Shown one piece after another: positions 1-15,098 of a DNA stretch of 23,594 nucleotides; position 1 is the stretch's first letter; each line of letters starts with the position of its first letter. Source of the DNA: a virus. A model generated the notes under the pieces. That model had not been told where the DNA came from. It ran no database searches and saw nothing but the letters and a program-made list of their open reading frames with translations. The stretch covers positions 1 to 23,594 of IMG/VR virus record IMGVR_UViG_3300043411_000526; one strand, written 5' to 3'. A program made the position numbers and the translations under genes.

Positions 1-479
1 GTCTCGACGCGCCGCTCGTGATTGCCCTCTATGTATTCAATCTTCGCCCTCGGCGCAGCCTTCTGCAACGCATCCAAAAACGAGTTGGCCGCGGCAATGT
101 CTTCCTCGTACGTGTAGTCCGTTTCGTCGACGTACCCCATGACGTGATGCTGGGCCAAGAACCCGCCACAATCGACGTGATCGCCGAGGAGAATAATTTC
201 ATGCGGGTCGAGCGCCTTCACATCGCCAAGGAGCGCAGCAAGCGCCCCCTTGTCCACCAGCGCGCCATGCGTGTCGGGAATCACCACGCGCACCACATCG
301 CCGACTCCGCGCTTCCTCGCCTCCCTCACCATGGGAGCCCGAACCTTCCGGGCGTTGCGGTGGCGCTCCAACGACTGCTTCGCAATATCCAACTCCTGCT
401 TGAGCCCGGCCACCTCGGCGGCGTGCGCCTTCTGTGACTCGTCACGCTGCACCGCATCCCAGTTGGTTTTCGAGTTCAT
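1..479 (-). CDS. Calcineurin-like metallophosphoesterase, N-terminal part (cut by window edge)
   Basis: The reading frame starts with ATG at 477-479 and stays open to base 1, giving 159 residues; the C-terminus lies outside the window. Three signature motifs of the calcineurin-like phosphoesterase fold are visible in order: IPDTHG (D69, H71), LLGDHVDCGG (G99, D100) and EGNHE (N153, H154). These supply metal ligands of a two-metal phosphatase or nuclease; the later histidine motifs would be off the edge. Residues 14-45 are rich in Glu, Lys, Gln and Leu and look like a short coiled coil, followed by a basic stretch (R39-R57). The gene follows the 89-residue membrane protein after 9 bases and is the last visible member of the late operon. 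The substrate cannot be told: phage members of this fold include protein phosphatases and DNA-processing enzymes. The superfamily assignment is strong; the specific role is unknown. Confidence 0.88.
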   Translation of the reverse strand, partial: MNSKTNWDAVQRDESQKAHAAEVAGLKQELDIAKQSLERHRNARKVRAPMVREARKRGVGDVVRVVIPDTHGALVDKGALAALLGDVKALDPHEIILLGDHVDCGGFLAQHHVMGYVDETDYTYEEDIAAANSFLDALQKAAPRAKIEYIEGNHERRVE

Positions 480-488
480 GCAGTCATT

Positions 489-758
489 TTATTTCGCCCC
501 GTACACCACCCGCTCCAAGTTCTGAATCTGCACCAGCATGGCTGCGATGGTGCTGCTCTGGTCGCTGACAGTCTTCAGCGTCCAACCGGAAAGCGTCATG
601 ACGATCAACAGCAGCACTGAGTTGAAGTTGAAGGATTCCGCTTTTCGTGGAGGCATGGCAGTTTGGGTATTTGAGGAGGATGAATTCCCGTGCGTATCGG
701 GCAAAACTCCTTTTTTTACCGGGAATCCGGAAGACGAAGGTGTTGCAAATCCACTCAT
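489..758 (-). CDS. Small single-span membrane protein, possible spanin or holin component
   Basis: This 89-residue protein begins with an ATGA overlap with the end of the lipoprotein gene. Residues 1-40 are polar and Ser/Asn/Pro-rich. One hydrophobic helix spans about 45-61 (NSVLLLIVMTLSGWTLK) and is preceded by basic residues (R38, K39), suggesting N-in/C-out topology. The tail (about 62-89) is helical and may be a short coiled coil. An internal ATG at 654-656 (M35) would give a 55-residue protein starting just before the helix, so the true start is uncertain. Position beside a lipoprotein and a two-helix membrane protein fits a lysis cassette, where an inner-membrane partner (i-spanin-like) or holin accessory is expected. 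Function is inferred from topology and context only; I recognise no family. Confidence 0.62.
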   Translation of the reverse strand: MSGFATPSSSGFPVKKGVLPDTHGNSSSSNTQTAMPPRKAESFNFNSVLLLIVMTLSGWTLKTVSDQSSTIAAMLVQIQNLERVVYGAK

Positions 759-1048
759 AAGCGTTTACCGAGCGCGAAATGCGCGTACGACATCGCGGGT
801 CCATCCCGCGTGTACTCGGCGTAGGTGAACGTCCAGCCGGCCGGCGTGCGCGCCAAGCCCTGCACTTCGATCTGGATGCTCAGGTACATCGGAATTTTGT
901 AGCCACCGCTGAAGGTGGAGCCGGCGAACCCAGCAGGAATCAAGCGGTCCATCGCTTGCTGGATGAGGCTGGATTGCGGGGCCGTGCCGCAGCCCACCAA
1001 AGCGAGCGTGGCGATGAGAAGCAGGACGCTACGGAGTTGGGCGGTCAT
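755..1048 (-). CDS. Small lipoprotein, possible outer-membrane lysis protein
   Basis: This 97-residue protein has a hydrophobic N-terminal signal (residues 5-19) ending in a lipobox LVGC, with C20 as the predicted lipidated cysteine. The +2 residue is Gly rather than Asp, so it would be sorted to the outer membrane under the usual E. coli rule. The mature part is soluble and mostly beta or turn, with no long coiled coil. The ATG lies 20 bases inside the 3' end of the holin-like gene, in another frame, and the stop overlaps the next start as ATGA. Overlapping small genes of which one is a lipoprotein resemble Rz/Rz1-type spanin arrangements, so an o-spanin role is plausible; a superinfection-exclusion lipoprotein is the main alternative. 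The lipoprotein call is strong, the lysis role moderate. Confidence 0.75.
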   Translation of the reverse strand: MTAQLRSVLLLIATLALVGCGTAPQSSLIQQAMDRLIPAGFAGSTFSGGYKIPMYLSIQIEVQGLARTPAGWTFTYAEYTRDGPAMSYAHFALGKRL

Positions 1049-1322
1049 AAGATGGGAATGGAGGCGGAGAGCCCAGCGACGGCGGAAGCGGGTGGTCTTT
1101 GAAGTATCCTATCGCCGAAATCGCAAATGACACTCCAAAAATATAGAGGATCATTTCCCAGTTCGGGGCTTGGATTTTCTGCGGGTCCAGCGCTGAGCCG
1201 GTGGCCACGCCGACGAAGCCGTACACGCCGGCAATCGCACCATTCCACGATTTGGCAAACGCACCGTAGAAAAAGTGCTTCACCCACCGCCAAACATCGC
1301 TGCGTACGGCGCGGGCGGTCAT
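1029..1322 (-). CDS. Holin-like small membrane protein
   Basis: This 97-residue protein has a basic amphipathic N-terminus (R4, R7, R12, K15), two hydrophobic segments at about 27-45 (WNGAIAGVYGFVGVATGSAL) and 56-74 (MILYIFGVSFAISAIGYF), and a proline-rich C-terminal tail from residue 77. Size, two predicted helices and a position directly after the spike gene and before a lipoprotein are typical of a phage holin. It starts with an ATGA overlap with the spike gene, so it is probably translationally coupled to it. The 3' end overlaps the lipoprotein gene by 20 bases. No endolysin is visible nearby, so the lysis assignment rests on topology and context. An alternative is a small membrane protein used in DNA entry. 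Confidence 0.65.
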   Translation of the reverse strand: MTARAVRSDVWRWVKHFFYGAFAKSWNGAIAGVYGFVGVATGSALDPQKIQAPNWEMILYIFGVSFAISAIGYFKDHPLPPSLGSPPPFPSYDRPTP

Positions 1323-3577
1323 GGCGCGAGGCGAATGGTCCCGACGTTGAGGTTTGTTACGGTGGCGGTGGATGGCGATCCGCTACTAAGCCAGTAACCA
1401 AGTACATACGCCTGCCCCGACGGAATGATTTCGTAAGACGTATTGGGCGGGCTTGAAGTAGACACGGGCGGCCACGCCAAACCAGACTCGGTAAAGAATG
1501 ACGGCTCTGACGAAAGGAAAAGCGAATTGGCTAAGGTTTCTCCGCCCAAACTCTCAACCGCCGGGATGCCCGATCCGGTTGTCTGATGATAGTAATTGCC
1601 CTTGAGTATCGCAGTCAGCAACACATCTAGGTCGAGTTCCTGCATTCCCGCGGCGCTTGGGTAAACGGTGAGAGGAGTGCTCACTAGCGGAAGCACGTTT
1701 GACGTAAAACTCGAAAAAGAATCAAATGTGACATCATTTCCGGTGACGTTAGTGACTAACGCCGTTCCGTTTCCTCCCGACCATGCAAATTGTCTTTGCC
1801 CGTCAACCGCGTTGGCGAGCGCCGCGTTGAACGTGGTGGCCATTCCGCCGTCTAGCGTCATTATGCCGGCGGTATCGGACGTTCGCGTTGACAGTGTTCC
1901 GGTCCATGTGCGCGGTCGCATCAGCGTAGGGTCCCAATCGAGGGAGTAGGCCCAGAGCGCGCTATTGCTCGTTGGGACAAGCACACTTGAACCCGCAGTA
2001 GGCAGGTCGTTGCCTTCGCCGCCAGAAAATGGAATGCTATCGCCAGAAACGGTTCCAACGGTCACGGACCTTCTAATTCGCGCTGTGTTGTAACCGGAAA
2101 TTACTTCCATCCAGTACACGTCAATGGTCGATCCTGTTGTTACGCCGTGCCCCGTCGGAGCCGTGATAGTGCCGGACGTTGCGTCGTTGCGCGTGGCAAG
2201 CGTCGAGATCGTGCCATACATGGACGCGACGCCATTGCTAGACCCGTTGCTGATGTTCGGATTTCCAAACGAAGCACCCGTGCCGCCCGTGCCGTGCCCA
2301 AATACGTTTCCGACCAGATTTTCAAATCTGGAAAGTCTGTTCATCACCGCCGCGACTCCATATGTGGGCTGACCAAGCTCTAGTCCGTATAGCCAATTTC
2401 GGAAAACTGTGTCCCATCCAGTTCCGCCAAAGTATCCGTCGTTTTTGTACTGAGGAGCCACGTTCCCTTCAAACAGTATGAATTGATTGTAGGGCGCGTG
2501 ATTGGAGTTCATCAGCGCAGAGTAAGCGGGAGGAGTTAGGTCGGGCCTATCTGTGACGATTGTGTTATAGGCCAACACGATTCCAGAGACGCGAGCTTGC
2601 GTAAAAAACGCAAAAAGACCGTCCTTTAATACGTTATCAATGAACAACAGTTGACTCGAAAAATCAGCCAGCGCGGCAACTGTGGACGTTCCGTACCCAT
2701 TAAAAAACTCCGTCCAACACCTTCTGATTTCGCATTGATGAGTTATGGTGATGTAAAATCCGTAGTTGTAATAGTCGATAACTCTAACGTTGTATGCCCA
2801 GCATTTCCACGCGGTTTCAAGACGAATGCCTGCGAATAGGTTAGTGTTTGTGCCGTCTATAATTAGGTTTTCGATACCACACAGCGTAGTCTTATAATAT
2901 GCGGACGTGACTGTCGCCGAAGGCGCGCCGGTATAATCTCCATGAAGGCCCGGAGAATCCAATACCAGTGTCGTTCCATTAAGAATGCCGCCAGTGTCGG
3001 CAATCTTCGCGATTTGCGCCCTGAGTTCCGTATTTGTATTTAGTGAATATGTAGGCGGGTCGCTCACGTCGCCCATTCTCACCTGAATTAGTTCGCCGTT
3101 ATTAAACGACGCCGTGCTTGCAACTGTGATAGTCGTAGCGCCCTTGGATAAAGACGCCACCGTTGCGGTTGTATTTCCTGAAGTAAATTGGAATCCGGTT
3201 GTTGCAATGGCGTTAGTCGCCCGTGTGTCTATGGTGGTAGTTGGAGCGCCGTTGGAATCGACGGAACCGCGTAACGTGACTTGCTTAGTCCACGGAATAT
3301 CAATCGTTCCGTCACACCTAAAGGTTCCTGGGCCGAGCAACACCACTTCGCCGTTTGGGCAAGCGCTCAACTTTGCCTCAATTTCCGCCGTGCGGTCGGT
3401 AGAATCGCCCGTCGTGTTGATTGTGGTGTAAATCGTATTTCTGACAGGAATGCCCCCCGGTATTCCTGCCGATTCCCATGTTCCGGCAGTCGGCAATCGC
3501 GACGATGGAATAGAGTATTCTGCCGCAAAGGCGAACGACGAAACAGCAAACAGAACGGCTCGAAGGATTCGATTCAT
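1319..3577 (-). CDS. Pectate-lyase-fold beta-helix tailspike-like protein with predicted signal peptide
   Basis: This 752-residue protein has a region at about 50-100 of the form seen at the start of right-handed beta-helix proteins (DSTDRTAEIEAKL, then GEVVLLGPGTF). Helix-type rungs follow, for example GIENLIIDGT at about 234-243 and repeated Asn/Gly turns to about 430. Later parts (about 465-750) look like small beta modules. Such proteins in phages are usually trimeric spikes that bind or cleave surface polysaccharide; I cannot name catalytic residues. The N-terminus (MNRILRAVLFAVSSFAFA, with likely cleavage around residue 18) looks like a Sec signal peptide, which is odd for a tailspike. 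There is no obvious virion-anchoring domain. Base composition is lower in GC than the capsid genes (25 of 60 bases in 2581-2640), suggesting separate acquisition. ATG follows the previous stop after 2 bases. Confidence 0.82.
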   Translation of the reverse strand: MNRILRAVLFAVSSFAFAAEYSIPSSRLPTAGTWESAGIPGGIPVRNTIYTTINTTGDSTDRTAEIEAKLSACPNGEVVLLGPGTFRCDGTIDIPWTKQVTLRGSVDSNGAPTTTIDTRATNAIATTGFQFTSGNTTATVASLSKGATTITVASTASFNNGELIQVRMGDVSDPPTYSLNTNTELRAQIAKIADTGGILNGTTLVLDSPGLHGDYTGAPSATVTSAYYKTTLCGIENLIIDGTNTNLFAGIRLETAWKCWAYNVRVIDYYNYGFYITITHQCEIRRCWTEFFNGYGTSTVAALADFSSQLLFIDNVLKDGLFAFFTQARVSGIVLAYNTIVTDRPDLTPPAYSALMNSNHAPYNQFILFEGNVAPQYKNDGYFGGTGWDTVFRNWLYGLELGQPTYGVAAVMNRLSRFENLVGNVFGHGTGGTGASFGNPNISNGSSNGVASMYGTISTLATRNDATSGTITAPTGHGVTTGSTIDVYWMEVISGYNTARIRRSVTVGTVSGDSIPFSGGEGNDLPTAGSSVLVPTSNSALWAYSLDWDPTLMRPRTWTGTLSTRTSDTAGIMTLDGGMATTFNAALANAVDGQRQFAWSGGNGTALVTNVTGNDVTFDSFSSFTSNVLPLVSTPLTVYPSAAGMQELDLDVLLTAILKGNYYHQTTGSGIPAVESLGGETLANSLFLSSEPSFFTESGLAWPPVSTSSPPNTSYEIIPSGQAYVLGYWLSSGSPSTATVTNLNVGTIRLAP

Positions 3578-3579
3578 GG

Positions 3580-4374
3580 TCAGTATTTGAAAGATGCGAT
3601 TGTAGTTGCGCCGTCACCTGACGATGAAGCGGATGTCCATGTTGGGTTTTGAGCGGAGGCCGACGCAAAGATTTGGTACGCCAACGACCCTCCCTCGCCT
3701 GACCCTGGAGAATGCGCAGTGGTGTTTGAGATCGTGTAACCCCCGTCTATGGATATAGCACCGCTAGAATTGGCCTCAAAAGACAGCCCAACGAAAACCA
3801 CGGTGTTTGCTTGCGACGGCGTAATGCTTCCTGGCTGAACCGTTGTCCATGCCCCTCCGCTGCCCGTGCCGTTCTGCTGATCCAGCGGAGTTGACGCCAT
3901 TCCACTGAATGCAATGACCTGTACCGAGCAGTACACGGCTGTGCCAGACAGCGTAAAGTTGTGGCCTGAGCCGACTGTACCACCATAACAATAGTATAGG
4001 CGATTGGAAATAAAAGTGCTAGTGCGCGTGGTGAGCGGAGTCCATGTATTGCTTTTTGAATCAGTGAGCGTTACATCAGCAGAGGCGGCGCTATACCACG
4101 ATGCGCTTACGACCATGAGATTTGCCCCGGTCGTAACAATGTCACCCGTGGTCCCTCCATTGATCCCTAGATTTGCCGCTACGTTCGATACTAGCGCAGG
4201 CCCGCCACCGCCCCCGCTCACAATCGTCAGCCCGTTAAACGCCGAATTTGGCGTCTTGCCGTTGATGGTCGAAGCGGTCGTGATGCTGATGCCGTTCTTC
4301 GCGTTCACGTCCGCAAACGCATGCGGCCCCAGTAGCCAGAAGCCGACCAAGAGTGTGACGATGAAGTGCTTCAT
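3580..4374 (-). CDS. Secreted beta-sandwich fibre-like protein
   Basis: The chosen start at 4372-4374 overlaps the previous stop as ATGA and gives 264 residues; the frame is open further upstream but that extension is arginine-rich out-of-frame translation. The protein begins with a clear signal peptide: K3, a hydrophobic core ([13 protein letters not shown]) and an Ala-X-Ala site (AFA) at about residue 21, followed by DVNAKNG. Residues 50-70 include a poly-Gly linker. The rest is a Gly/Ser/Thr-rich beta-sandwich-type domain with regularly alternating strands, ending FKY. I recognise the pattern as one common in phage fibre and bacterial surface proteins but cannot name the family. It sits between two other genes that begin with signal peptides, so the three may act together. 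Function: probable adhesin or host-surface-binding component (inference). Confidence 0.75.
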
Positions 4375-5696
4375 TGTACGGTCAGGTACTCGCTGTTCAC
4401 GTTGAGGAGGATAATGTCGGCGGTGAGCGCGCGACCGACTTGCTGCACTTTGTCGCCAGACGTGGCCGGCGCGGTCTGCGTTAAGCCGCCAGCAGTGGCG
4501 GATAGATAAATGACACCACCGGGCGTCCACGACCACGCATCGTTGCGCACCGTGCCGGAGTAGACCACCACGGCAGGATTCGTGGACGAGTAGGCCGCGA
4601 CTGCCAGACCGACTGCCGGGTACGTGCCGGAGCCGTTGGCGTCGGCAAGCTGCCACGTGGAGGAGCCGTCAAGGTAGACGGCCTCCCACTGCGCAATCGT
4701 TGCGCCTGCGAGCAAGCCAGAGACCGCGAGGCCGCTGTAGGTGTCATCGGTGCCGAGAGCGCCATTGAAGGTCACGGACGACGACCAATTCGCCCCATAC
4801 GTAGCAGAACTATTGGCGGTGAGCATGCTCCCGTTCGGCCCCACGCCGAGCTGCGCGTACGTGGTCGAATTGTTGCCAAGGATGATACTGCCCTTCGTCG
4901 TCGTTGGACCAATCCCGGAACCGAGAACGTCAATCGTGATCGGATTTGTTACCGTAAGATTCGTCGCATTCAGGTCTGTCACCGTAAGGGCGGATAGCGT
5001 GACGACGTTGGCGATGATGTTGCCCATGCCGGCAGCGCCAATCGTCACCGTCGTGGCGTTGGATTGGATGATAGAGTCGGACAGGCCGACCGTGCCATTG
5101 CCCTTCGGGATGACGTTCGCCGTGAGCGACGACACCGCAATCACGTTGCCAGTACCAGAAGGCGTCGCCCACGTGCCGTCGCCCCGCCAATACGTGGAGG
5201 ACGACGCACTAGTGCCTCCGTTGAGATTCGCCACAGGAAGGCTCCCGGTGATAATGTTGGAGCCGCCCGCCAGATTGAGCGCGCCAAACGCCGGAGGTGC
5301 GCCAGCGCCAGCAGAGAGCAGCGGTGCGCCGGAGTTGCCGATGGACGCCAGCGGGACAATCGCGGTCGAGCCACCTCCGACCATAACGACATTCGCAGTC
5401 GCTCCCGTCGTCGTGACATTTCCACTCCCACTCGCCGTCGAGTTGATCGTGATGTTTCCGGCATTCTGAGTGACTGTGATATTGTCACCGGCCACGATTG
5501 TCTTGGAAACGGGAACAAGCGTGCCGTTGTACATGATCACGGCGTTTGCCGTAGCCGTAACCGGGCTCTGCACGTTGGTCGTGTTGCCGGAATTACGCTG
5601 CGTCAGAATGACTTCATTGGCCGCAACAGCACCATGCGCCGACGCGATGGACAGCGCGAAAAGAATTAGGACGAATCCGTGAAGGAATGTTTTCAT
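4371..5696 (-). CDS. Tail-fibre-like protein with predicted signal peptide and decoration-type C-terminal domain
   Basis: The ATG at 5694-5696 starts [10 protein letters not shown] with a hydrophobic core to about residue 18 and Ala-X-Ala sites at about 20 and 25, a Sec signal peptide. The frame is open upstream but that part reads antisense-like, and the start here lies 7 bases after the previous stop. The 441-residue product is Gly/Thr/Asn-rich. Residues 157-177 hold the tail-fibre motif [19 protein letters not shown], well known in short fibre repeats. The region 190-330 is a repetitive beta-strand series. The final 120 residues resemble the small domain found in capsid decoration-type proteins (AVYLDG, then GTVRNDAW, then GGVIYLSAT, then VQQVGRAL). 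The likely role is a fibre or surface protein. The signal peptide is unusual for a virion fibre. Confidence 0.78.
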
Positions 5697-5703
5697 TGGT
5701 GCG

Positions 5704-7374
5704 TTAGCGGTAAGGGATCGGGCGGGGTTGAGTGGGTTGGCGTCCGGCTGACTGGGCAGCGAGTTGAGCGACCATGGCAGGCACGTCGGCGCGCTCGGCA
5801 CCGTAGTTTGGACGCAGGAATTGATTCTGGTACAGGCGAGACAGCATGACTTCACGAGCGCCGCGTGGCGTGCCCATCATTGCGGCCATGGCGGCTGCGG
5901 CTCCAGGATAGCCACCCATACCCTTGCCGAGCAGTGCCCCCGTTGCAGGAGCGACGTACTGCATGAGCTGATTTACACCAGACGGAGGCGTGTCAGCAGC
6001 GTCCTTCACGGACTGCCAAAAGGCATTCTGAAAGCGGCCAATCTTTTCGAGGTTTCCGCTGAGTTTTTCACCCGCCGCGTAAGCGTCACCGATGACCTTG
6101 GCGGAAATGTTGCCGTCGCCCTTGTTGAGCGCGTCCTGAACGAGCCCAATCTTGGCCAGCGTTACGCGGGCTTCTTGGAGCTTCTTTCCGATGTCGGGCT
6201 TGCCGTTAGACACAGCCTCTCTTTCCAGCCGAGCAAACGCATCGTCCGCATCGGTCTGGTGCTTTTTTGCAATCTCAAGCACGCTGGGGTCTTTCTTCGG
6301 CATGTTCCGGTAGTTCGCGAATGCCTGATTCGCGTTCGCCTGAGCCTGCTTGAACTCATCCAGCATGATTTTCGCCTGCGGAGAGACCGCCGCAGCATCC
6401 GCGTATGCCTTGTTTGGGACGATGCGCGCTACATTGAGCGACTGATCCGAAAATGCCGTATTCGGCGGCAGCTTCAGTTCCTCGCGGATCGCTTGATTTG
6501 TGATGGGCTGATTGCGGCGGATCGCCTCCTGCGCGGTCGCAGCCTTGCCGCCGATGGAGTTCAACGTATCCGTCGCCAGACTGGGACGAATGACCGATGG
6601 CGGGATAACGTAGCCGAGTTCCTTGCCAATACGCAGCGTCTCTCGCCGGGTGGCATCCTGAGCAGCCTTCAGGGCCGTAGCAGCCGCAACAGCGCCCGCG
6701 TCAATACCCTTGGCCAGCCCAGTGCCAACAGCCGATGCAGCGGCAGATACAGCATTCTCTCCGAGCGTAGCCGCACGGCCTTCGTCGATGCCTGTTTGCA
6801 CGTTGCGAGCCACTACATTACCAGCTGCCTGCTTCACGCCCTCGCGCACGACACCGCGCATTCCCGTTCCGGCCAAAGGACCAAGCGGAATTGCACCCAC
6901 GGTTGCAGCCCCAGCAATCGCTCCGGGACGAATCGGACCGCCCTCGATGGCTTGCGCGGCCAATTCACCAGCGCCGCCAAGGATAGCGCCACCAGCAGGG
7001 CCAGCGACCATTTGCCCAATCGTCGGCGGACCAGCACGAATGGCCATCATGCCCATTTGCTTCATCGCCGTACCAGACGCCTGCTGCACTTCATCTGGCG
7101 TAAGTCCACCCATGCCCATCTCGGTCGATGCGGTGAGCGCGCCAGAGCCGGGCACGTTGCGATAGTCGGTCTTGTCCTTGACGGCACCGAGCGCGCCCAT
7201 GATGCGAGCGCCAAGGCCAGCCTGCTGCTCGGGAGCGGCAGGAGCTTTTGCACGCACCGCCTCCTGCTCAGTCAGTCGAGCATCGTACGCCTGCAAGGCC
7301 GCAATATCGTCCTCAGTGGGAGGATTCGGCTTGTCCCAGTTGTAGGTGCGGCCAGATGGGGAAGTAATTTTCAT
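5704..7374 (-). CDS. Putative internal virion / DNA ejection protein
   Basis: The ATG at 7372-7374 shares its A with the TGA of the previous gene (TGATG), so I prefer it to the GTG one codon upstream; this gives 556 residues. The N-terminus ([13 protein letters not shown], then PTEDDI) is a short hydrophilic segment. Residues about 75-230 are Gly/Ala-rich with hydrophobic stretches such as [19 protein letters not shown], resembling membrane-active parts of ejection proteins. Residues 230-470 are helical and charged. A second Gly/Ala-rich hydrophobic stretch lies at about 475-510. In podoviruses, large helical Gly/Ala-rich proteins encoded after the tail nozzle are ejected to form a conduit for DNA; I infer this role. 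No lytic transglycosylase motif is visible. It pairs with the 445-residue gene upstream. Confidence 0.65.
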
Positions 7375-8711
7375 CACTCGATTTTCCAGCCAGCCGGAAG
7401 ACGCGGAAGACTGCCATCAACCTCACGCGCATTTCCAGCCGGCGCAGGAGCAACGCCACCAAGAACGGATTCGTCCTTGGCGTCGAAAATGGGCATTTCA
7501 AGAATCTTTTCGTTGATGGCGTCCTGAATCTCGGTCGCCTTCTTGCCGGCCTTGCGCATGGCCTGCACGTCGCGAGCGATGGCGCGGTTGCGTTCCTCAA
7601 CCTTTTTGAGCGCAGTAAAGATGGCTACGTTGCCCTCCGGCGTCTTGTTCATCGCTGCGGACCACTTCTCAAACAGGCCCATTTCAGTGTCGGAAATAGC
7701 GCCCTTGGTCTGATTCACGCGCTTCAGGACTTGATCGCCAAGAAGCTGCTGCAACTCTTCAGCCTTTGCGACGGAACCCTTATCAATGAGTCCAGCGGTT
7801 TCAGCGGCGCGACGGACCATAAGCTCGGCGTCGGCAGCGGTGCCGGTACGCACGGTGTCGAGCAACTTTACGGCGCGGTCGTAGGACGCGATGTTGGAAC
7901 TGGCTGCTTTGCCAGCCTCCAAAAGACCCTCGTTGAACTTGTGTGCGCTCTCTCCGCGCTGAAGAAGCTCCTGCTTGGCAGCCTCCTCCTCGGGTGAGAG
8001 GACGGGGCGCTGCGGCTGGGAAATGGGACCGCGTGCAACCTCCCTCATCGTCCGCTTGTCCACGGCAATTTCGATGGGATTACCTTTTTCGTCCGCAGAG
8101 CGAATCTTCTCCACGTCGAACATGGGCGACCGCTGCGGCCCCAGCATCTTCAGCACCGCATCCACGCGCTCAATCGACTGCGGAGAGCCGCCAGACTTGG
8201 AGTAAATTTGCAGGAAGCGCGCCGGGTCAAACGCCGGAGCCTCGGCGGTGTCATCGGGCGGCATGAACTGGGCGAGCGACTTGGCCAGCGCCTCTTGGTC
8301 GCGCTGTTGCTGCACCATGACCTGCTGAGATGCCTTCAACTGCTGCTCGCGCATCGCGCCTTCCTGCGCCTTCAGGCGTTGGTCCTGAATGTGACCCTTG
8401 GTTGCGAGGGCGGAATTAAGCATGCCGTTAAAGCGAATGTTGTCCGAGAGCGATAGACCGCCGTTCTTGATGGTCTTTTCGATGAACTGCTCAACGCCTT
8501 CAGGAGCGTACTTCTTCGTCTCTTCGTCCTGCATGAAGGCTTTGATCAAGCCCTCGTTTTGACCCTGAAGCGCCGCGTTACGGGCACGGTTCTGCGCGTA
8601 CTCCTGATAGCCGCCAGAGATGCCCTGAGCAATGCCCTGCGCTTGGGCAACTTTGCCTTGCGCGCGGAGCTGGCCGCTGATGTCGGTGACGCCTGGAGCG
8701 TAAGCACACAT
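7374..8711 (-). CDS. Putative internal virion protein, helical
   Basis: The start at 8709-8711 is preceded by AAAGGAGG with a 9-base spacer, so it is preferred over the ORF extension to 8795, which lies inside the HNH gene in another frame. The 445-residue product begins MCAYAPGVTDISGQLRAQGK. It is mostly helical: an Ala/Gln-rich start, a Gln/Lys/Glu-rich likely coiled coil at about 108-147, a proline-rich linker near 235-245, and a second long helical part. There are no membrane segments. Its composition and coupling (TGATG) to the Gly/Ala-rich gene fit one of the set of internal head proteins that are ejected with DNA. I do not recognise a catalytic domain. Minor structural protein is the safe call; ejection protein is inference. 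Confidence 0.62.
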   Translation of the reverse strand: MCAYAPGVTDISGQLRAQGKVAQAQGIAQGISGGYQEYAQNRARNAALQGQNEGLIKAFMQDEETKKYAPEGVEQFIEKTIKNGGLSLSDNIRFNGMLNSALATKGHIQDQRLKAQEGAMREQQLKASQQVMVQQQRDQEALAKSLAQFMPPDDTAEAPAFDPARFLQIYSKSGGSPQSIERVDAVLKMLGPQRSPMFDVEKIRSADEKGNPIEIAVDKRTMREVARGPISQPQRPVLSPEEEAAKQELLQRGESAHKFNEGLLEAGKAASSNIASYDRAVKLLDTVRTGTAADAELMVRRAAETAGLIDKGSVAKAEELQQLLGDQVLKRVNQTKGAISDTEMGLFEKWSAAMNKTPEGNVAIFTALKKVEERNRAIARDVQAMRKAGKKATEIQDAINEKILEMPIFDAKDESVLGGVAPAPAGNAREVDGSLPRLPAGWKIE

Positions 8712-8712
8712 G

Positions 8713-9231
8713 TTAGTTTGCCTCCTTTGGTTGAATCGGAAAGTTGGTACGAGCGAATGGACCGTGGGCAGAAATCGCCGCCGCATCGTATGCACGGGCA
8801 GCCTCTTGCTCGGTATCGAAGCTACCCAAGTATTTCATTTTTTTATTCACTACGATGTAAGCGGCAGGCCGGCACGTGGCCTTTTTATTCGCGTAGTAAA
8901 CCCCCTTGAACTTGCGGCCATTTTTCGGGTTAGTGTTGGCGCAATTCTGGGCATGCGTTGCCCAACGAAGATTGCAACGTCTGTTATCAAGTCCATCGCG
9001 AGACACGTGATCTATTACAAAGCCATCCATCCGGCCCATCAAGTGGACGTGCATCAGGATGTTTTTCTGAATTCTTTTCTTGCCCTTCGGATAGGTAAGT
9101 TCGCATCGAAATGCGTACACCGTGCAGCCCTTCTTGATGCGCGCGTACCACCTATACTTCATCAGGTCATCATAGTCGCTGTCATCTACCGTGGCCATAT
9201 GGCCGTGAGAAAGTGGAATTTGACTAGGCAT
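8713..9231 (-). CDS. HNH homing endonuclease with C-terminal AP2 DNA-binding domain
   Basis: This is a 172-residue protein. The HNH core is visible at about 60-97: MHVHLMG (H61, H63), VIDHVSRDGLDNRRCNLRW (D74, H75, N83, N87) and ATHAQN (N96). Residues about 106-160 form an AP2-type domain, with FKGVYY near its start, YLGSFDTEQEAARAYDAAA near its end, and FARTNFP after it. This HNH plus AP2 pairing is typical of free-standing phage homing endonucleases, which nick a specific site and spread by recombination. It sits alone between two virion genes, 4 bases after the upstream stop and with no Shine-Dalgarno sequence. It is more AT-rich than nearby genes (28 G+C of 60 at 8881-8940). It probably has no virion role. 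No intron boundaries are seen. Confidence 0.9.
   Translation of the reverse strand: MPSQIPLSHGHMATVDDSDYDDLMKYRWYARIKKGCTVYAFRCELTYPKGKKRIQKNILMHVHLMGRMDGFVIDHVSRDGLDNRRCNLRWATHAQNCANTNPKNGRKFKGVYYANKKATCRPAAYIVVNKKMKYLGSFDTEQEAARAYDAAAISAHGPFARTNFPIQPKEAN
8721..8726 (-). promoter_or_regulatory. Strong ribosome binding site inside the 3' end of the HNH gene
   Basis: AGGAGG (AAAGGAGG over 8721-8728) lies 9 bases before the ATG at 8709-8711 and decides the start of the helical virion protein. It is formed by the last codons of the HNH endonuclease (Lys-Glu-Ala-Asn-stop), so the endonuclease gene carries the binding site of its downstream neighbour. Confidence 0.85.
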
Positions 9232-11257: not shown

Positions 11258-11944
11258 TTATGTCAGAGCTGCGTACTTCCACGCGCCGTTGTATCGGAAA
11301 TAAAGCCGATGGTTGGTACTATCAACGACCATCGCAGCAGCAGCAGTACCCCAGTTATCCGGCGCACCAGTAGCCGCTCCGGCGCATGTTTTGATGTAAA
11401 CGAAGCCGTTGTTTGCGCTTGTGCTGATGGCAGAGCTGACATTCCCCATGCGAATATCTACCTCAAATGTACCTCCACTACCCTGCGGTGTCTGAATTAT
11501 TCCGGACGCAGAATCGGTGCCATTTCCAATTGTGAACGTAAGCGTTCCAGTCGCAAATGTAACAGGTCCACCACCAGCCGAAAGTGAGCCTGTACTGATA
11601 CCGTTTTGAATTGTGACACCACCGGAGATGAGTCCGCTGTGAGCAATCTTAAGCCTAGCCGTCGAGCTGAGACCCATTGTAAACTCGGTGTCGCCACCGT
11701 TGCTTAGAGCGATGCCGCACGTCGGCCATGTAAGAGTCGTGTTGAGCTGGCAAAATGAAATTGCGCCGCCACCAGACGCAGTGCGACCAAGGAAACCTCC
11801 GCCTGTTGCGGCAGGAGCAAGGTTGGCAATCGTTACCTCGCCGGAGCCAATGGTTACAGTCGGATTCCCCAAAAGATTCAGCTTTTGGTAAGTAATTGGA
11901 TCGGAAGCACCTGTGAAGGTGTAGCCAGGAACTACATTACTCAT
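11258..11944 (-). CDS. Tail-fibre-like structural protein
   Basis: This 228-residue protein starts inside the last codons of the endonuclease VII gene (8-base overlap, ATGAGTAA). The N-terminus (PGYTFTGASDPITYQKLNLL, then GNPTVTI) resembles short segments that open phage fibre proteins. The body is Gly/Thr/Ser-rich with regular beta strands, and the C-terminus (STNHRLYFRYNGAWKYAAL) is the type of sequence that ends phage receptor-binding or fibre-knob proteins. It has no signal peptide, unlike the three fibre-like genes further downstream, so it is the best candidate here for a conventional virion-attached short fibre. The exact attachment partner is unknown. Confidence 0.65.
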   Translation of the reverse strand: MSNVVPGYTFTGASDPITYQKLNLLGNPTVTIGSGEVTIANLAPAATGGGFLGRTASGGGAISFCQLNTTLTWPTCGIALSNGGDTEFTMGLSSTARLKIAHSGLISGGVTIQNGISTGSLSAGGGPVTFATGTLTFTIGNGTDSASGIIQTPQGSGGTFEVDIRMGNVSSAISTSANNGFVYIKTCAGAATGAPDNWGTAAAAMVVDSTNHRLYFRYNGAWKYAALT

Positions 11945-12602
11945 TTTGGGTCAGGTGATGAAGGTTCCCAGTGCCACTCTTCCACAAATAGATTTGGGCG
12001 TCATTCAAGAGAGCGATGTTATCCTCAAAATGCCCAAGCCCCTGATTGCATCGAAGACAAAGCAAGCCGCGCACCTTTTGGGTTTCGTGGCAGTGATCGA
12101 CAGCCAAGCGCCTTCCGCTTTTACATGGCTTTCTGCAAATTGCGCACGCCCCTCCTTGCGACTGAAACATATCAAAATACGCAGCCTCATCCATGTTGTA
12201 TCGCCTAAGCTGCATGCGACGCATTGCATTCTTCCTGATCTCAGGGTTCTTTGCCCTCCACTTTGCACAATACGCTAGTTTCTTATCTCTTGGGGCCGCG
12301 TGCTGCCTCTCAATAGCACAAGTTTTGCAAAACTTTTTACCGGAGGCCAAGAATCCTGTATTCGGATGGCCCTCTGAGTATGGGTGCCCATGAATGCAGT
12401 ACTCCTTCTTCTTTCTTGGAATTTTTACGTATCTCGCTCTTTTCCCTTCGCGAATGCATGTCCGGCAGCTTCTACTGCCTGTCTTGCTGACGAATGTGTT
12501 TTCATCCGAATACGGATGGCCCTTCGGACAATGCGTCTTACTTTTCCTGTAAGACGGAAATCCTCGCTTATCCAAAACTGGATATTCAATTACAATGCTC
12601 AT
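11937..12602 (-). CDS. Recombination endonuclease VII-type HNH nuclease with two N-terminal zinc-knuckle repeats
   Basis: This is a 221-residue protein. The C-terminal part (about 145-200) matches the endonuclease VII fold: C153-x2-C156 and C182-x2-C185 for zinc, VDHCHE with D169/H170 as the catalytic pair, RGLLC, and N186. Before it are two tandem units, C25-x3-H29-x16-C46-x2-C49 and C69-x3-H73-x18-C92-x2-C95, each with GHPYS, likely zinc-binding DNA-recognition modules. A basic linker joins them (RKKK). T4 endonuclease VII resolves branched DNA, but such stand-alone copies in tail operons are commonly homing-type genes. It overlaps the nozzle stop as ATGA and the fibre start by 8 bases, so its insertion has kept translation coupled. 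Local composition is AT-rich. Homing is more likely than a resolvase role, though both are possible. Confidence 0.85.
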   Translation of the reverse strand: MSIVIEYPVLDKRGFPSYRKSKTHCPKGHPYSDENTFVSKTGSRSCRTCIREGKRARYVKIPRKKKEYCIHGHPYSEGHPNTGFLASGKKFCKTCAIERQHAAPRDKKLAYCAKWRAKNPEIRKNAMRRMQLRRYNMDEAAYFDMFQSQGGACAICRKPCKSGRRLAVDHCHETQKVRGLLCLRCNQGLGHFEDNIALLNDAQIYLWKSGTGNLHHLTQNE

Positions 12603-14266
12603 CCTACTTGAGTGAGTGAGAGTCTATCGCCGCTTCTCGCTTCGTCGCCAATGCCATCTATTTCTATATATCCCGTAGAGTTATAGATTTTGAACCAAAT
12701 TTGCCTGCCATTTCTCCTGCAAATAAGTGGCATTCTAAAAGTTTGAAGCATTTCAGGCTGAAACCCGGTGCCCGATTGCACGCTGTCCGGCCCCGTGGAG
12801 TAGTCCTTTCGAAACGCCCGGTTGTAGTCGTCGTTGGAGTTGTTAAGCGCGTACGGCGTATCGCCAAACAACCACGTCTGTGAGCGGGAGTAGGTCTGGC
12901 TGGAAAGCACCGTCTCGTTTTCGCTTGCGCCTTCAGAGTACGCGACGACTGAGAAGTTTGGCCGGTTCGTAGACGCATCGAACCACATCCGGCGCGAAAT
13001 GCGATTGTTGTTGTCCATCAGGTACGGGCGGCTCGTGAGGCTGAAGGCAATCTCGCCAACCGTCGCTCCACTGATGTCGTTCTGTCCGGTGCCAGTGACG
13101 AAAATGCGCCCGTCATCGGTGACGGCATGCAGGCGGGTCGCGCCGTAGTAGTTCGCGACAACGAAGCCTTGAATGGCCATGTTCAGCGACGAGGCAAAGC
13201 GCCACTCGCCCCACCACTGACCCGTGATGAAATTGTAGACGGCGACCGTGTTGCAGGTCGTGGAGTTGTCCAACGGAAGCGCGACGTAAAGATTATTATT
13301 CCAGTACGCCATCGAAACCTTGCTCGCGTACATCCAGTTCACCCGGCTCATGATGCCGGAGATGTTGCGCGATAGCGGCTCCGTCACCGACTGAAGTTGA
13401 TTCTGGAGATTGAGCCGGATCGACGTGATGTTCCGGTCGCTCATGTAGATCAAGTCGGGACCGACCGTGACACAGGCGTTGATCCCGATGATGCCGAGCT
13501 GGCGCGTAATCTCCGTGGCCGTCACGTCCTCAAGACCGCCCTGTACGTTCTGGAGCAGCAGCGACGAATCGTGCTTAAACACCACGAGCGCGTTTTCACC
13601 GAACGGGTACGTGCAAACCACGTAGTCGCTCGTGCCGGTGTTCAGATTGAAGTCATTTGAGATGAGATCGTATTCCGTGAAGTCCAGCACTTCGGAAGCG
13701 GTCACGCGGTCCTTGCCATTCACAACCCAAAGACGGTTCTGGTAGTACGTCGCTTGATTGCTTTCCGGAATGCTCTCAAATCCAGGATCACCAGCCGAGT
13801 CGGGCACAACCTCAAATGACGTTGACCAGTTACCGTCCCAGCGAATAGGCGTCTGTCCTTCACCGGCAAAGATGAGCAGGTAGTTGTTGGCCTGAACAAC
13901 CGTTGACTGCTGCGAGACCGTGTAGGCCGCAGGATACGCGATGGTGCGCGGGGTCTGTCCGAAGGCGTAGAATCCAGCGGTCGTCGCGCCAATCAGCACG
14001 ATCCACTCCTGCGCAGGAGCAGCAGGGTCCGAGTATTTTCCGGATGCGTAAACATCTCCGAACGGCGTGGCCCCGAGAACGGGAATGCACGTCCATCCGC
14101 CTCGCGTGGCCGCGTTTGTGGTGCGCATGTCCACATTGATCGCTTCCTGCACTTGCCCCGGCTTCAGATTCTCGGGGGAGTCAAACTGGTTGACGCCGAA
14201 AAAGTCTTTATCCCCTTCCTGCATGGGAGGGGAGTCGGTAGCGCCGTAACTGGAATATCGGTCCAT
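12599..14266 (-). CDS. Beta-propeller tail-nozzle-like protein
   Basis: This 555-residue protein has an N-terminus (FDSPENLKPGQVQEAINVDM then RGGW, about 28-58) of the form common to phage propeller proteins of the P22 gp10/T7 gp12 type, in which a short arm precedes the propeller. Regular blocks of strands ending in aromatic-rich turns run from about 85 to 420 (YNFITGQWWGEW near 355-366 is a typical blade). The C-terminal part (430-555) is a beta-rich domain. In podoviruses these proteins extend the portal-neck channel and close it after packaging. It starts with a one-base TAATG overlap with the coiled-coil gene and ends with an ATGA overlap with the endonuclease VII gene. The last 200 bases are AT-rich compared with the rest of the gene. 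Assignment is from fold pattern and position. Confidence 0.72.
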   Translation of the reverse strand: MDRYSSYGATDSPPMQEGDKDFFGVNQFDSPENLKPGQVQEAINVDMRTTNAATRGGWTCIPVLGATPFGDVYASGKYSDPAAPAQEWIVLIGATTAGFYAFGQTPRTIAYPAAYTVSQQSTVVQANNYLLIFAGEGQTPIRWDGNWSTSFEVVPDSAGDPGFESIPESNQATYYQNRLWVVNGKDRVTASEVLDFTEYDLISNDFNLNTGTSDYVVCTYPFGENALVVFKHDSSLLLQNVQGGLEDVTATEITRQLGIIGINACVTVGPDLIYMSDRNITSIRLNLQNQLQSVTEPLSRNISGIMSRVNWMYASKVSMAYWNNNLYVALPLDNSTTCNTVAVYNFITGQWWGEWRFASSLNMAIQGFVVANYYGATRLHAVTDDGRIFVTGTGQNDISGATVGEIAFSLTSRPYLMDNNNRISRRMWFDASTNRPNFSVVAYSEGASENETVLSSQTYSRSQTWLFGDTPYALNNSNDDYNRAFRKDYSTGPDSVQSGTGFQPEMLQTFRMPLICRRNGRQIWFKIYNSTGYIEIDGIGDEARSGDRLSLTQVG

Positions 14267-14435: not shown

Positions 14436-15098
14436 TCAGCGCGTCTGGAATGGGATAAAGGCCCAGCCCGGAAGGTCCGGGTTGTAGAAAGCAAAATCGA
14501 AGTCGTCGAAACTGAAGTCGCCAAACGCGCCAGCATCCGCCGTGGCAGTCGGCATGGCAACGAGGTTGTTGAACGCTGCGCCGCCGATGGTGAGTGCTCC
14601 AGTATTCACCGTGACCGCAGCGCCGGCCTTAGCTACAATGGCGGAACTGGACACCTCGGAGGCAAAACGGGCAATGACCGTACCACTGGCGCTCGGTTTG
14701 ATGACGCCCTGGATGATGGCGATATTTCCGGTCGTGAGCGAACTGGCATTGCTCGCAGCCGGGAAATCGTACGTCGATCCGTAGTTCAACGTGCCACTCG
14801 TGGCGTCAAGCGTGTACGTGGACTGGTACTCAAGCAGGTCTGGAGTCGCGGGGCCATTGATAGACCAGCGCGATCCCGTTGTGGTCGCGGCCGACGTGTA
14901 CGGGATGATGAACTTGAAGCGATAGGTCGTGCCTGCAATGACGGGGAACGACAGCCCCGTAACGTCCTGCATCGTATTCGGCGTGGCGTTGTTGTTCGTC
15001 ACGTCACTTTCGATGACGACAGACGAATTACCACCGGAGGACGACGTGCCGGAGCCACCGCCACGACTACCTAAAACGGAAGGATGGTTGGTCAGCAT
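14436..15098 (-). CDS. Beta-rich virion structural protein
   Basis: This 220-residue protein begins with a Gly/Ser-rich linker (about 10-25), then a beta domain. VTNNNATPNTMQDVTGLSFP and GTTYRFKFIIPY are a pattern I associate with phage structural proteins of unknown function, with regular strands to about residue 175. The end is acidic and aromatic (DFSFDDFDFAFYNPDLPGW). No signal peptide or membrane segment is present. The start ATG is preceded by ACTACC rather than a Shine-Dalgarno sequence. Located between a small structural gene and the coiled-coil/nozzle pair, it may be a decoration, head-fibre or tail component. Function is inferred only from composition and context. Confidence 0.6.
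   Translation of the reverse strand: MLTNHPSVLGSRGGGSGTSSSGGNSSVVIESDVTNNNATPNTMQDVTGLSFPVIAGTTYRFKFIIPYTSAATTTGSRWSINGPATPDLLEYQSTYTLDATSGTLNYGSTYDFPAASNASSLTTGNIAIIQGVIKPSASGTVIARFASEVSSSAIVAKAGAAVTVNTGALTIGGAAFNNLVAMPTATADAGAFGDFSFDDFDFAFYNPDLPGWAFIPFQTR

Follow-up and report, generated by a model that had tools for sequence, protein, structure and literature searches.

Predicted export signals on a row of three fibre-like genes in a podovirus-like phage fragment

Three adjacent fibre-like genes and their N-termini

The window analysed here, the whole 23,594 nucleotides of IMG/VR virus record IMGVR_UViG_3300043411_000526, is a linear, 23.6-kb, podovirus-like fragment in which every large gene lies on the minus strand. 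Three consecutive genes, designated F1, F2 and F3, occupy the fibre slot of its late operon, on the same strand as the virion genes and coupled to them, with lysis-like genes following. An initial annotation had placed a Sec-type signal peptide (SP) on each of the three, and all three open reading frames (ORFs) and N-termini are present as described there.

4371–5696, minus strand: F1, 441-residue fibre-like protein with an SP, a phage fibre segment mid-protein and a phrog_12121 match at the C terminus (E 8e-11)
5622–5696, minus strand: SP of F1; hydrophobic-region (h-region) score 3.16, n-region charge +2 counting the amino terminus, weight-matrix score 8.0
3580–4374, minus strand: F2, 264 residues; SP, a collar of ~36 residues and a β-sandwich phage tail domain (residues ~57–264)
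4312–4374, minus strand: SP of F2, site LGPHAFA/D (the slash marks the cut); h-region score 2.78
1319–3577, minus strand: F3, 752-residue β-rich spike-like protein with an SP and six cysteines in close pairs
3524–3577, minus strand: SP of F3, MNRILRAVLFAVSSFAFA, ending at the cleavage site; h-region score 2.49, weight-matrix score 8.0

The N-termini of F1, F2 and F3 share the n/h/c layout of signal peptidase I substrates, with positive n-regions, hydrophobic cores and A-x-A sites; for F1 there are two candidate cleavage positions, following residues 20 and 25. The scores come from a home-made scheme that combines a weight matrix built from 35 Escherichia coli SPs, a Kyte-Doolittle h-region and the n-region charge, and on this scale the maximum among 803 internal segments of the window is 2.39, below all three cores. 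F1–F3 are the only large window genes with an SP, an adjacency of p = 0.02 if 3 of 17 large genes were picked at random, and among the 24 window genes the only other SP feature belongs to a 97-residue lipoprotein (755–1048), which brings the predicted exported products of the operon to four. The lipobox (L-x-x-C) found there is absent from the cleavage sites of F1–F3, and no further transmembrane segment follows the SP in any of the three. The fibre-like gene at 11258–11944, which the initial annotation had set apart as lacking an SP, is likewise given none by the scorer.

Gene starts are inferred throughout the metagenomic contigs used here. The ATG of F1 (5696) lies 7 nt past the stop of the upstream gene, that of F2 (4374) overlaps the F1 TGA as ATGA, and that of F3 (3577) lies 2 nt past the F2 stop, and this tight spacing or overlap makes the three start codons credible. 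F1 has no clear Shine-Dalgarno sequence, so its translation is probably coupled.

F1 is related to phage tail proteins through its fibre segment and has fibre-domain relatives in viral contigs. A model of F2 built with its relatives (predicted local distance difference test score, pLDDT, 82; predicted template modelling score 0.76) resembles annotated phage minor tail proteins (TM-score ~0.5–0.7), and comparison with PDB folds gave no convincing match (best E 0.07). F3 has no relatives in viral contigs, public phages, 84,980 bacterial and archaeal genomes or the PDB; its description as a β-helix could not be confirmed, with no family match in PHROGs or Pfam and a pLDDT of 34 for a single-sequence AlphaFold model. 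The F3 cysteines pair as 73/88, 233/259 and 282/287, and F2 has two, at 129 and 149. Neither PHROGs nor Pfam places a peptidoglycan hydrolase or lysin domain in F1–F3.

Signal peptides across related genes and phages

The F2 tail domain belongs to a family that is virtually phage-only, with one contig of a metagenome-assembled genome among the 84,980 prokaryote genomes, and on that ground an origin of F2 as a borrowed host adhesin was rejected. In a second scan the family numbered 77 distinct members, and 51 of them begin no more than 6 residues from the domain. Thirteen carry an SP or a twin-arginine (Tat)-like signal before it (12 as called, plus L141, whose start is lost at a contig end) and are scattered over the tree. 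In an alignment of 16 F2 relatives the SP-less members start with 'MA' and then the domain; L008 and L009 place an SP exactly before an F2-type domain, and F2 of the window places one before collar and domain. In L002, 49% identical to F2, the collar is kept and the SP is absent, and the adjoining F1-related gene also has no SP. Homologues lacking these N-termini, to which the initial annotation had looked as a sign against the signals, therefore do occur, but they do not make the SP spurious; the L002 sequence shows it, rather, as a predicted prefix that can be swapped. The F2/L002 pair was the only one used from BLAST comparisons of mature N-termini between fibres, in which low-complexity matches dominate. 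On a quickly made domain tree with many weak branches, SP state changes ~12 times and clusters no more than shuffled labels do, and at least three changes are forced by well supported branches. The three-gene arrangement of fibre, F2 and large protein, with an SP on each, is repeated in L129, the closest F2 relative (54%), and in L156, and no relative of the window capsid protein is detectable in the records of either.

Recurrence was examined in loci fetched with the F1 and F2 sequences as bait and not by SP, among which shared ancestry leaves some counts not fully independent. SPs were found on 18 of 78 fibre-domain genes as compared with 26 of 339 other large genes, and most of those 26 are neighbours of SP-bearing fibres. 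A neighbour with an SP was present in 13 of 17 loci whose fibre has one and in 12 of 56 otherwise (p = 6e-5); in several of the 12 the fibre's own SP falls just under threshold or was missed through start choice or type. Beside SP-bearing F2-family members the corresponding figures, from a sample that shares some loci with the former, were 8 of 10 loci versus 13 of 56 (p = 0.001), with SPs on 17 of 34 neighbour genes versus 14 of 216. Runs of two to five consecutive SP-bearing fibre or spike genes occur in many unrelated viral contigs, with four in each of L082, L087 and L050, four to five in L142, and a lipoprotein-type fibre plus four more in L036. The predicted SP state is thus one that follows the phage and not the domain, and the description of the arrangement as unusual needs qualifying, since the pattern recurs in many environmental phages.

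Twin-arginine signals on fibre-type proteins were seen at L014:5797 (RRKFIK), in the L046:7697 region (RRKFAK) and in the L202:3817 region (RRKFLL), those of L014 and L202 being the two Tat-like cases among the 13 signal-bearing F2-family members; signals of this type imply export of a folded protein, if they act as predicted. In L041 and L044, SP-bearing fibre proteins of ~2000 residues lie from 4681 onward and have 24 and 26 cysteines, both even numbers.

Two features of the SP-bearing proteins bear on whether the signals work. An AxA-type site directly follows the hydrophobic core in 48 of 64 large proteins with hydrophobic N-termini, as compared with ~27 of 64 at shifted positions (p = 3e-4). 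Even cysteine numbers go with disulfide folding outside the cytoplasm, and even:odd counts were 33:12 in mature SP-bearing proteins as against 179:235 in other phage genes (p = 1e-4). Within fibre-domain proteins alone the ratio was 15:6 with an SP and 14:26 without (p = 0.008, or 0.025 after removal of near-copies). Cysteines are also denser in the SP-bearing group (1.21 versus 0.35 per 100 residues; p = 2e-4 within fibre-domain proteins) and sit in close pairs, although SP-less homologues show some clustering as well. The group therefore appears to carry the cysteine signature of an oxidised fold and is richer in paired cysteines than ordinary tail fibres.

Two complete phages were found in which every fibre candidate identified has an SP. 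G001 (locus L126) is a podophage of 34.3 kb, taken as complete because its ends overlap by 80 bases and its terminase is split over them. Its SP genes include a 498-residue protein adjoining the stabiliser and proteins of 526, 255 and 198 residues in the fibre slot, and small proteins encoded next to the capsid and stabiliser genes have SPs too. Directly after an SP-bearing fibre lies a 116-residue SP protein (L126:4433–4783, minus strand) with weak likeness to tail-fibre assembly and XkdW proteins (E 0.003 and 0.001; the Pfam match is under the curated cut-off), possibly an exported fibre chaperone. Both the 498- and 116-residue proteins gave only self-matches against viral contigs. A 165-residue SP protein (L126:10712–11209, minus strand) directly follows the capsid gene, the position of a head decoration protein, and an O-antigen-ligase-like membrane protein (L126:8321–9487, minus strand; Wzy_C, above the Pfam cut-off) is encoded within the late virion operon. 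The complete phage MW202444, in which an integrase and a central tail protein are also encoded, has a single long fibre (1253 residues), and this bears an SP. A 'sep15/selm redox' annotation beside that fibre was dropped, as the protein has no cysteine.

Export, virion attachment and rival explanations

An export signal on a row of fibre-like proteins suggests that the products are moved out of the cytoplasm and fold within the envelope. F1–F3 would be made as precursors directed to the Sec system by ordinary N-terminal signals; once these had been removed by signal peptidase I, the mature proteins would fold in the periplasm, with disulfides where cysteines are present, and the fibres would stay in the envelope until lysis brought them into contact with particles, to which they would attach. 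That the SPs are functional and the mature fibres fold in the periplasm is, on these sequences, very probable. Given export, attachment to virions has slightly the better chance; the virion is the favoured destination because mature F2 is an ordinary tail domain and some complete phages have no SP-less fibre candidate. What can be read directly is the predicted signals, their placement before complete tail domains, their recurrence by phage and the oxidised-fold signature of the group; from these we infer export, cleavage, periplasmic folding and attachment, and the full route, from export to joining the virion at lysis, is proposed tentatively, at just short of an even chance.

Several observations weigh against this route. 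The cleavage-site score of F2 is weak, those of F1 and F3 being good; F1 has no cysteines, and the parity test does not reach significance when confined to the F2 family (p = 0.12). The body-plan relatives of the window phage (L101–L117) have no SP-bearing fibres, so the SP run distinguishes this phage from the rest of its group. SP-less fibre-like genes are present in the window (11258–11944 and 14436–15098), and in L087 four SP genes lie beside an SP-less collar fibre; in both cases, therefore, the SP-bearing fibres need not be the receptor binders. Fibres exported by Sec beyond the inner membrane must also find particles at lysis, and no tailed phage is known to attach Sec-exported fibres in this way.

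Of the three options raised in the initial annotation, export gains support from the cleavage motifs, the SPs placed exactly before otherwise complete fibre domains, the even and paired cysteines and the Tat-type variants. Hydrophobic anchors that stay uncleaved and fasten fibres to membrane or tail during assembly, with no export, would account for hydrophobic N-termini and for the weak F2 site, but the AxA sites after the h-region, cysteine parity and pairing that indicate an oxidising compartment, and Tat-type signals in place of Sec ones in L014, L202 and L046 leave this option very improbable. The other two, action on the envelope and pick-up by particles at lysis, are inseparable by sequence. 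That the SPs work but the products target the infected cell or what surrounds it, with the virion fibres encoded by other, SP-less genes, is a doubtful but weighty alternative; such products might mask or trim glycans (excluding superinfection or keeping progeny off debris), loosen exopolysaccharide or make cells stick. The SP genes of other phages have sialate-acetylesterase-type esterase (SASA), ConA-like lectin and β-helix domains, with a GH43 match below the Pfam cut-off, and these speak for such action, but enzymes and lectins of this kind are equally typical of virion tailspikes. The O-antigen-ligase-like gene of G001 points the same way, as do the SP-less fibre-like genes and the lipoprotein of the window operon and the arrangement in L087; late expression just before lysis, however, leaves little time for exclusion, and G001 and MW202444 have no SP-less fibre candidate. 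All known tailed phages have receptor binders on the virion, and if these two do, attachment after export is favoured, and with it pick-up at lysis.

Exported surface proteins expressed from prophages, occupying the fibre slot much as lambda lom, an exported-protein gene, sits in the tail-fibre region, would make F1–F3 lysogenic-conversion cargo. MW202444 does have an integrase, but the window genes are coupled to late virion genes, the F2 family is near-absent from the 84,980 genomes in which prophage copies would appear, and the products are fibre proteins themselves and not barrels or small lipoproteins; we regard this as improbable. An artefact of wrong starts or random hydrophobic N-termini, which predicted starts and a home-made scorer might invite, is scarcely credible in view of the three cores above the internal maximum, the association by phage in two overlapping samples and the start codons pinned down by close spacing and an ATGA-type overlap.

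Periplasmic folding of exported F1–F3 followed by attachment at lysis may also belong to a widespread mode of tailed-phage assembly, in which whole fibre sets are exported by Sec or Tat, folded with disulfides in the periplasm and added to particles only at lysis, phages switching between cytoplasmic and periplasmic manufacture as one and the same domain acquires or loses its N-terminal signal. This generalisation is possible but more speculative; as part of it, and held as loosely, export in G001 would also take in the weakly fibre-assembly-like protein and the small proteins inside the virion module.

F1–F3 resemble ordinary tail fibres and tailspikes in their late structural operon, the fibre slot before lysis genes, shared fibre segments and the minor-tail-protein fold of F2. 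Ordinary tail fibres, however, begin directly with the domain and are folded in the cytoplasm, whereas F1–F3 bear predicted removable export signals. T5 Llp, lambda Lom and Bor and Streptococcus mitis PblA and PblB are phage-encoded host-surface proteins, of which PblA and PblB are tail proteins; Llp, Lom and Bor are not fibres, and PblA and PblB are generally described without an SP, unlike the SP-bearing, fibre-like F1–F3. Among late proteins, the secreted phage endolysins (fOg44 Lys44 and signal-arrest-release endolysins) use host Sec before holin triggering (PMC6116005, PMC3765740); they share Sec use with the route proposed here, but are muralytic with a lysis role. The mosaic adhesive trimer (MAT) proteins of Bdellovibrio are SP-bearing, phage-like fibres that serve as surface adhesins of the bacterium (PMC10769870). 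They are encoded by the bacterium, for predation, with a conserved domain of ~130 residues right after the SP (PMC10769870), whereas F1–F3 lie in a phage late operon. F2 was rejected as a MAT member, having a ~36-residue collar and then a phage-only domain, in a phage operon, from a family near-absent from genomes. Sec use by phages is thus already known for lysis proteins, and SP-bearing fibres from the Bdellovibrio MAT; no published description of SP-bearing phage tail fibres was found in the open-access literature, an absence that is weak evidence.

The usual view is that tailed phages complete their assembly in the cytoplasm. Phages that route fibres via Sec or Tat, if confirmed, would alter this picture and permit disulfide-bonded fibres; were the products to stay on the host, they would form a new set of surface-modifying phage proteins. 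Annotation of receptor-binding proteins would be affected as well, since an SP-bearing fibre gene can be set aside as 'cell surface' or host-derived; the label 'membrane-anchored cell surface protein' is given to a related fibre gene in three public phage records, of which the one checked has no SP.

Gene order and neighbouring genes in the window

By position and sequence, the gene order reads as terminase, portal, scaffold, capsid, connector, stabiliser, internal virion proteins, F1-F2-F3, small membrane proteins and phosphoesterase; most names follow from order, PHROGs and Pfam matches being few. A 445-residue neighbour protein used as a scan query gave no matches. Over 99% of its length, the capsid protein shares 39% identity with its counterpart in Phage C75C1; for the stabiliser, viral contigs supplied 17 relatives (L101–L117) at ~48–65% identity.

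12599–14266, minus strand: tail/stabiliser protein, 555 residues, phrog_3287; bait for the body-plan relatives
11258–11944, minus strand: fibre-like protein, 228 residues, without an SP; adjoins the tail stabiliser; candidate ordinary virion fibre
5704–7377, minus strand: internal-virion-like protein, 557 residues, without an SP; just upstream of F1; related proteins occur in phages that share the body plan
1029–1322, minus strand: small holin-like membrane protein, two hydrophobic segments, its start overlapping the F3 end; function assigned from position and hydrophobicity only
755–1048, minus strand: lipoprotein, 97 residues, LVGC/G lipobox; called from an h-region score of 2.98 and the LVGC motif

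The lipoprotein lies in the lysis-like region and may be either a spanin of the Rz1 type or a lipoprotein that blocks receptors. Two HNH/endonuclease VII-like ORFs (8713–9231 and 11937–12602, minus strand), probably homing endonucleases, stand between virion genes. Downstream of the lysis-like genes, an ORF cut by the window edge (3–479, minus strand) has the calcineurin-like phosphoesterase motifs DTHG, GDHVD and GNHE.

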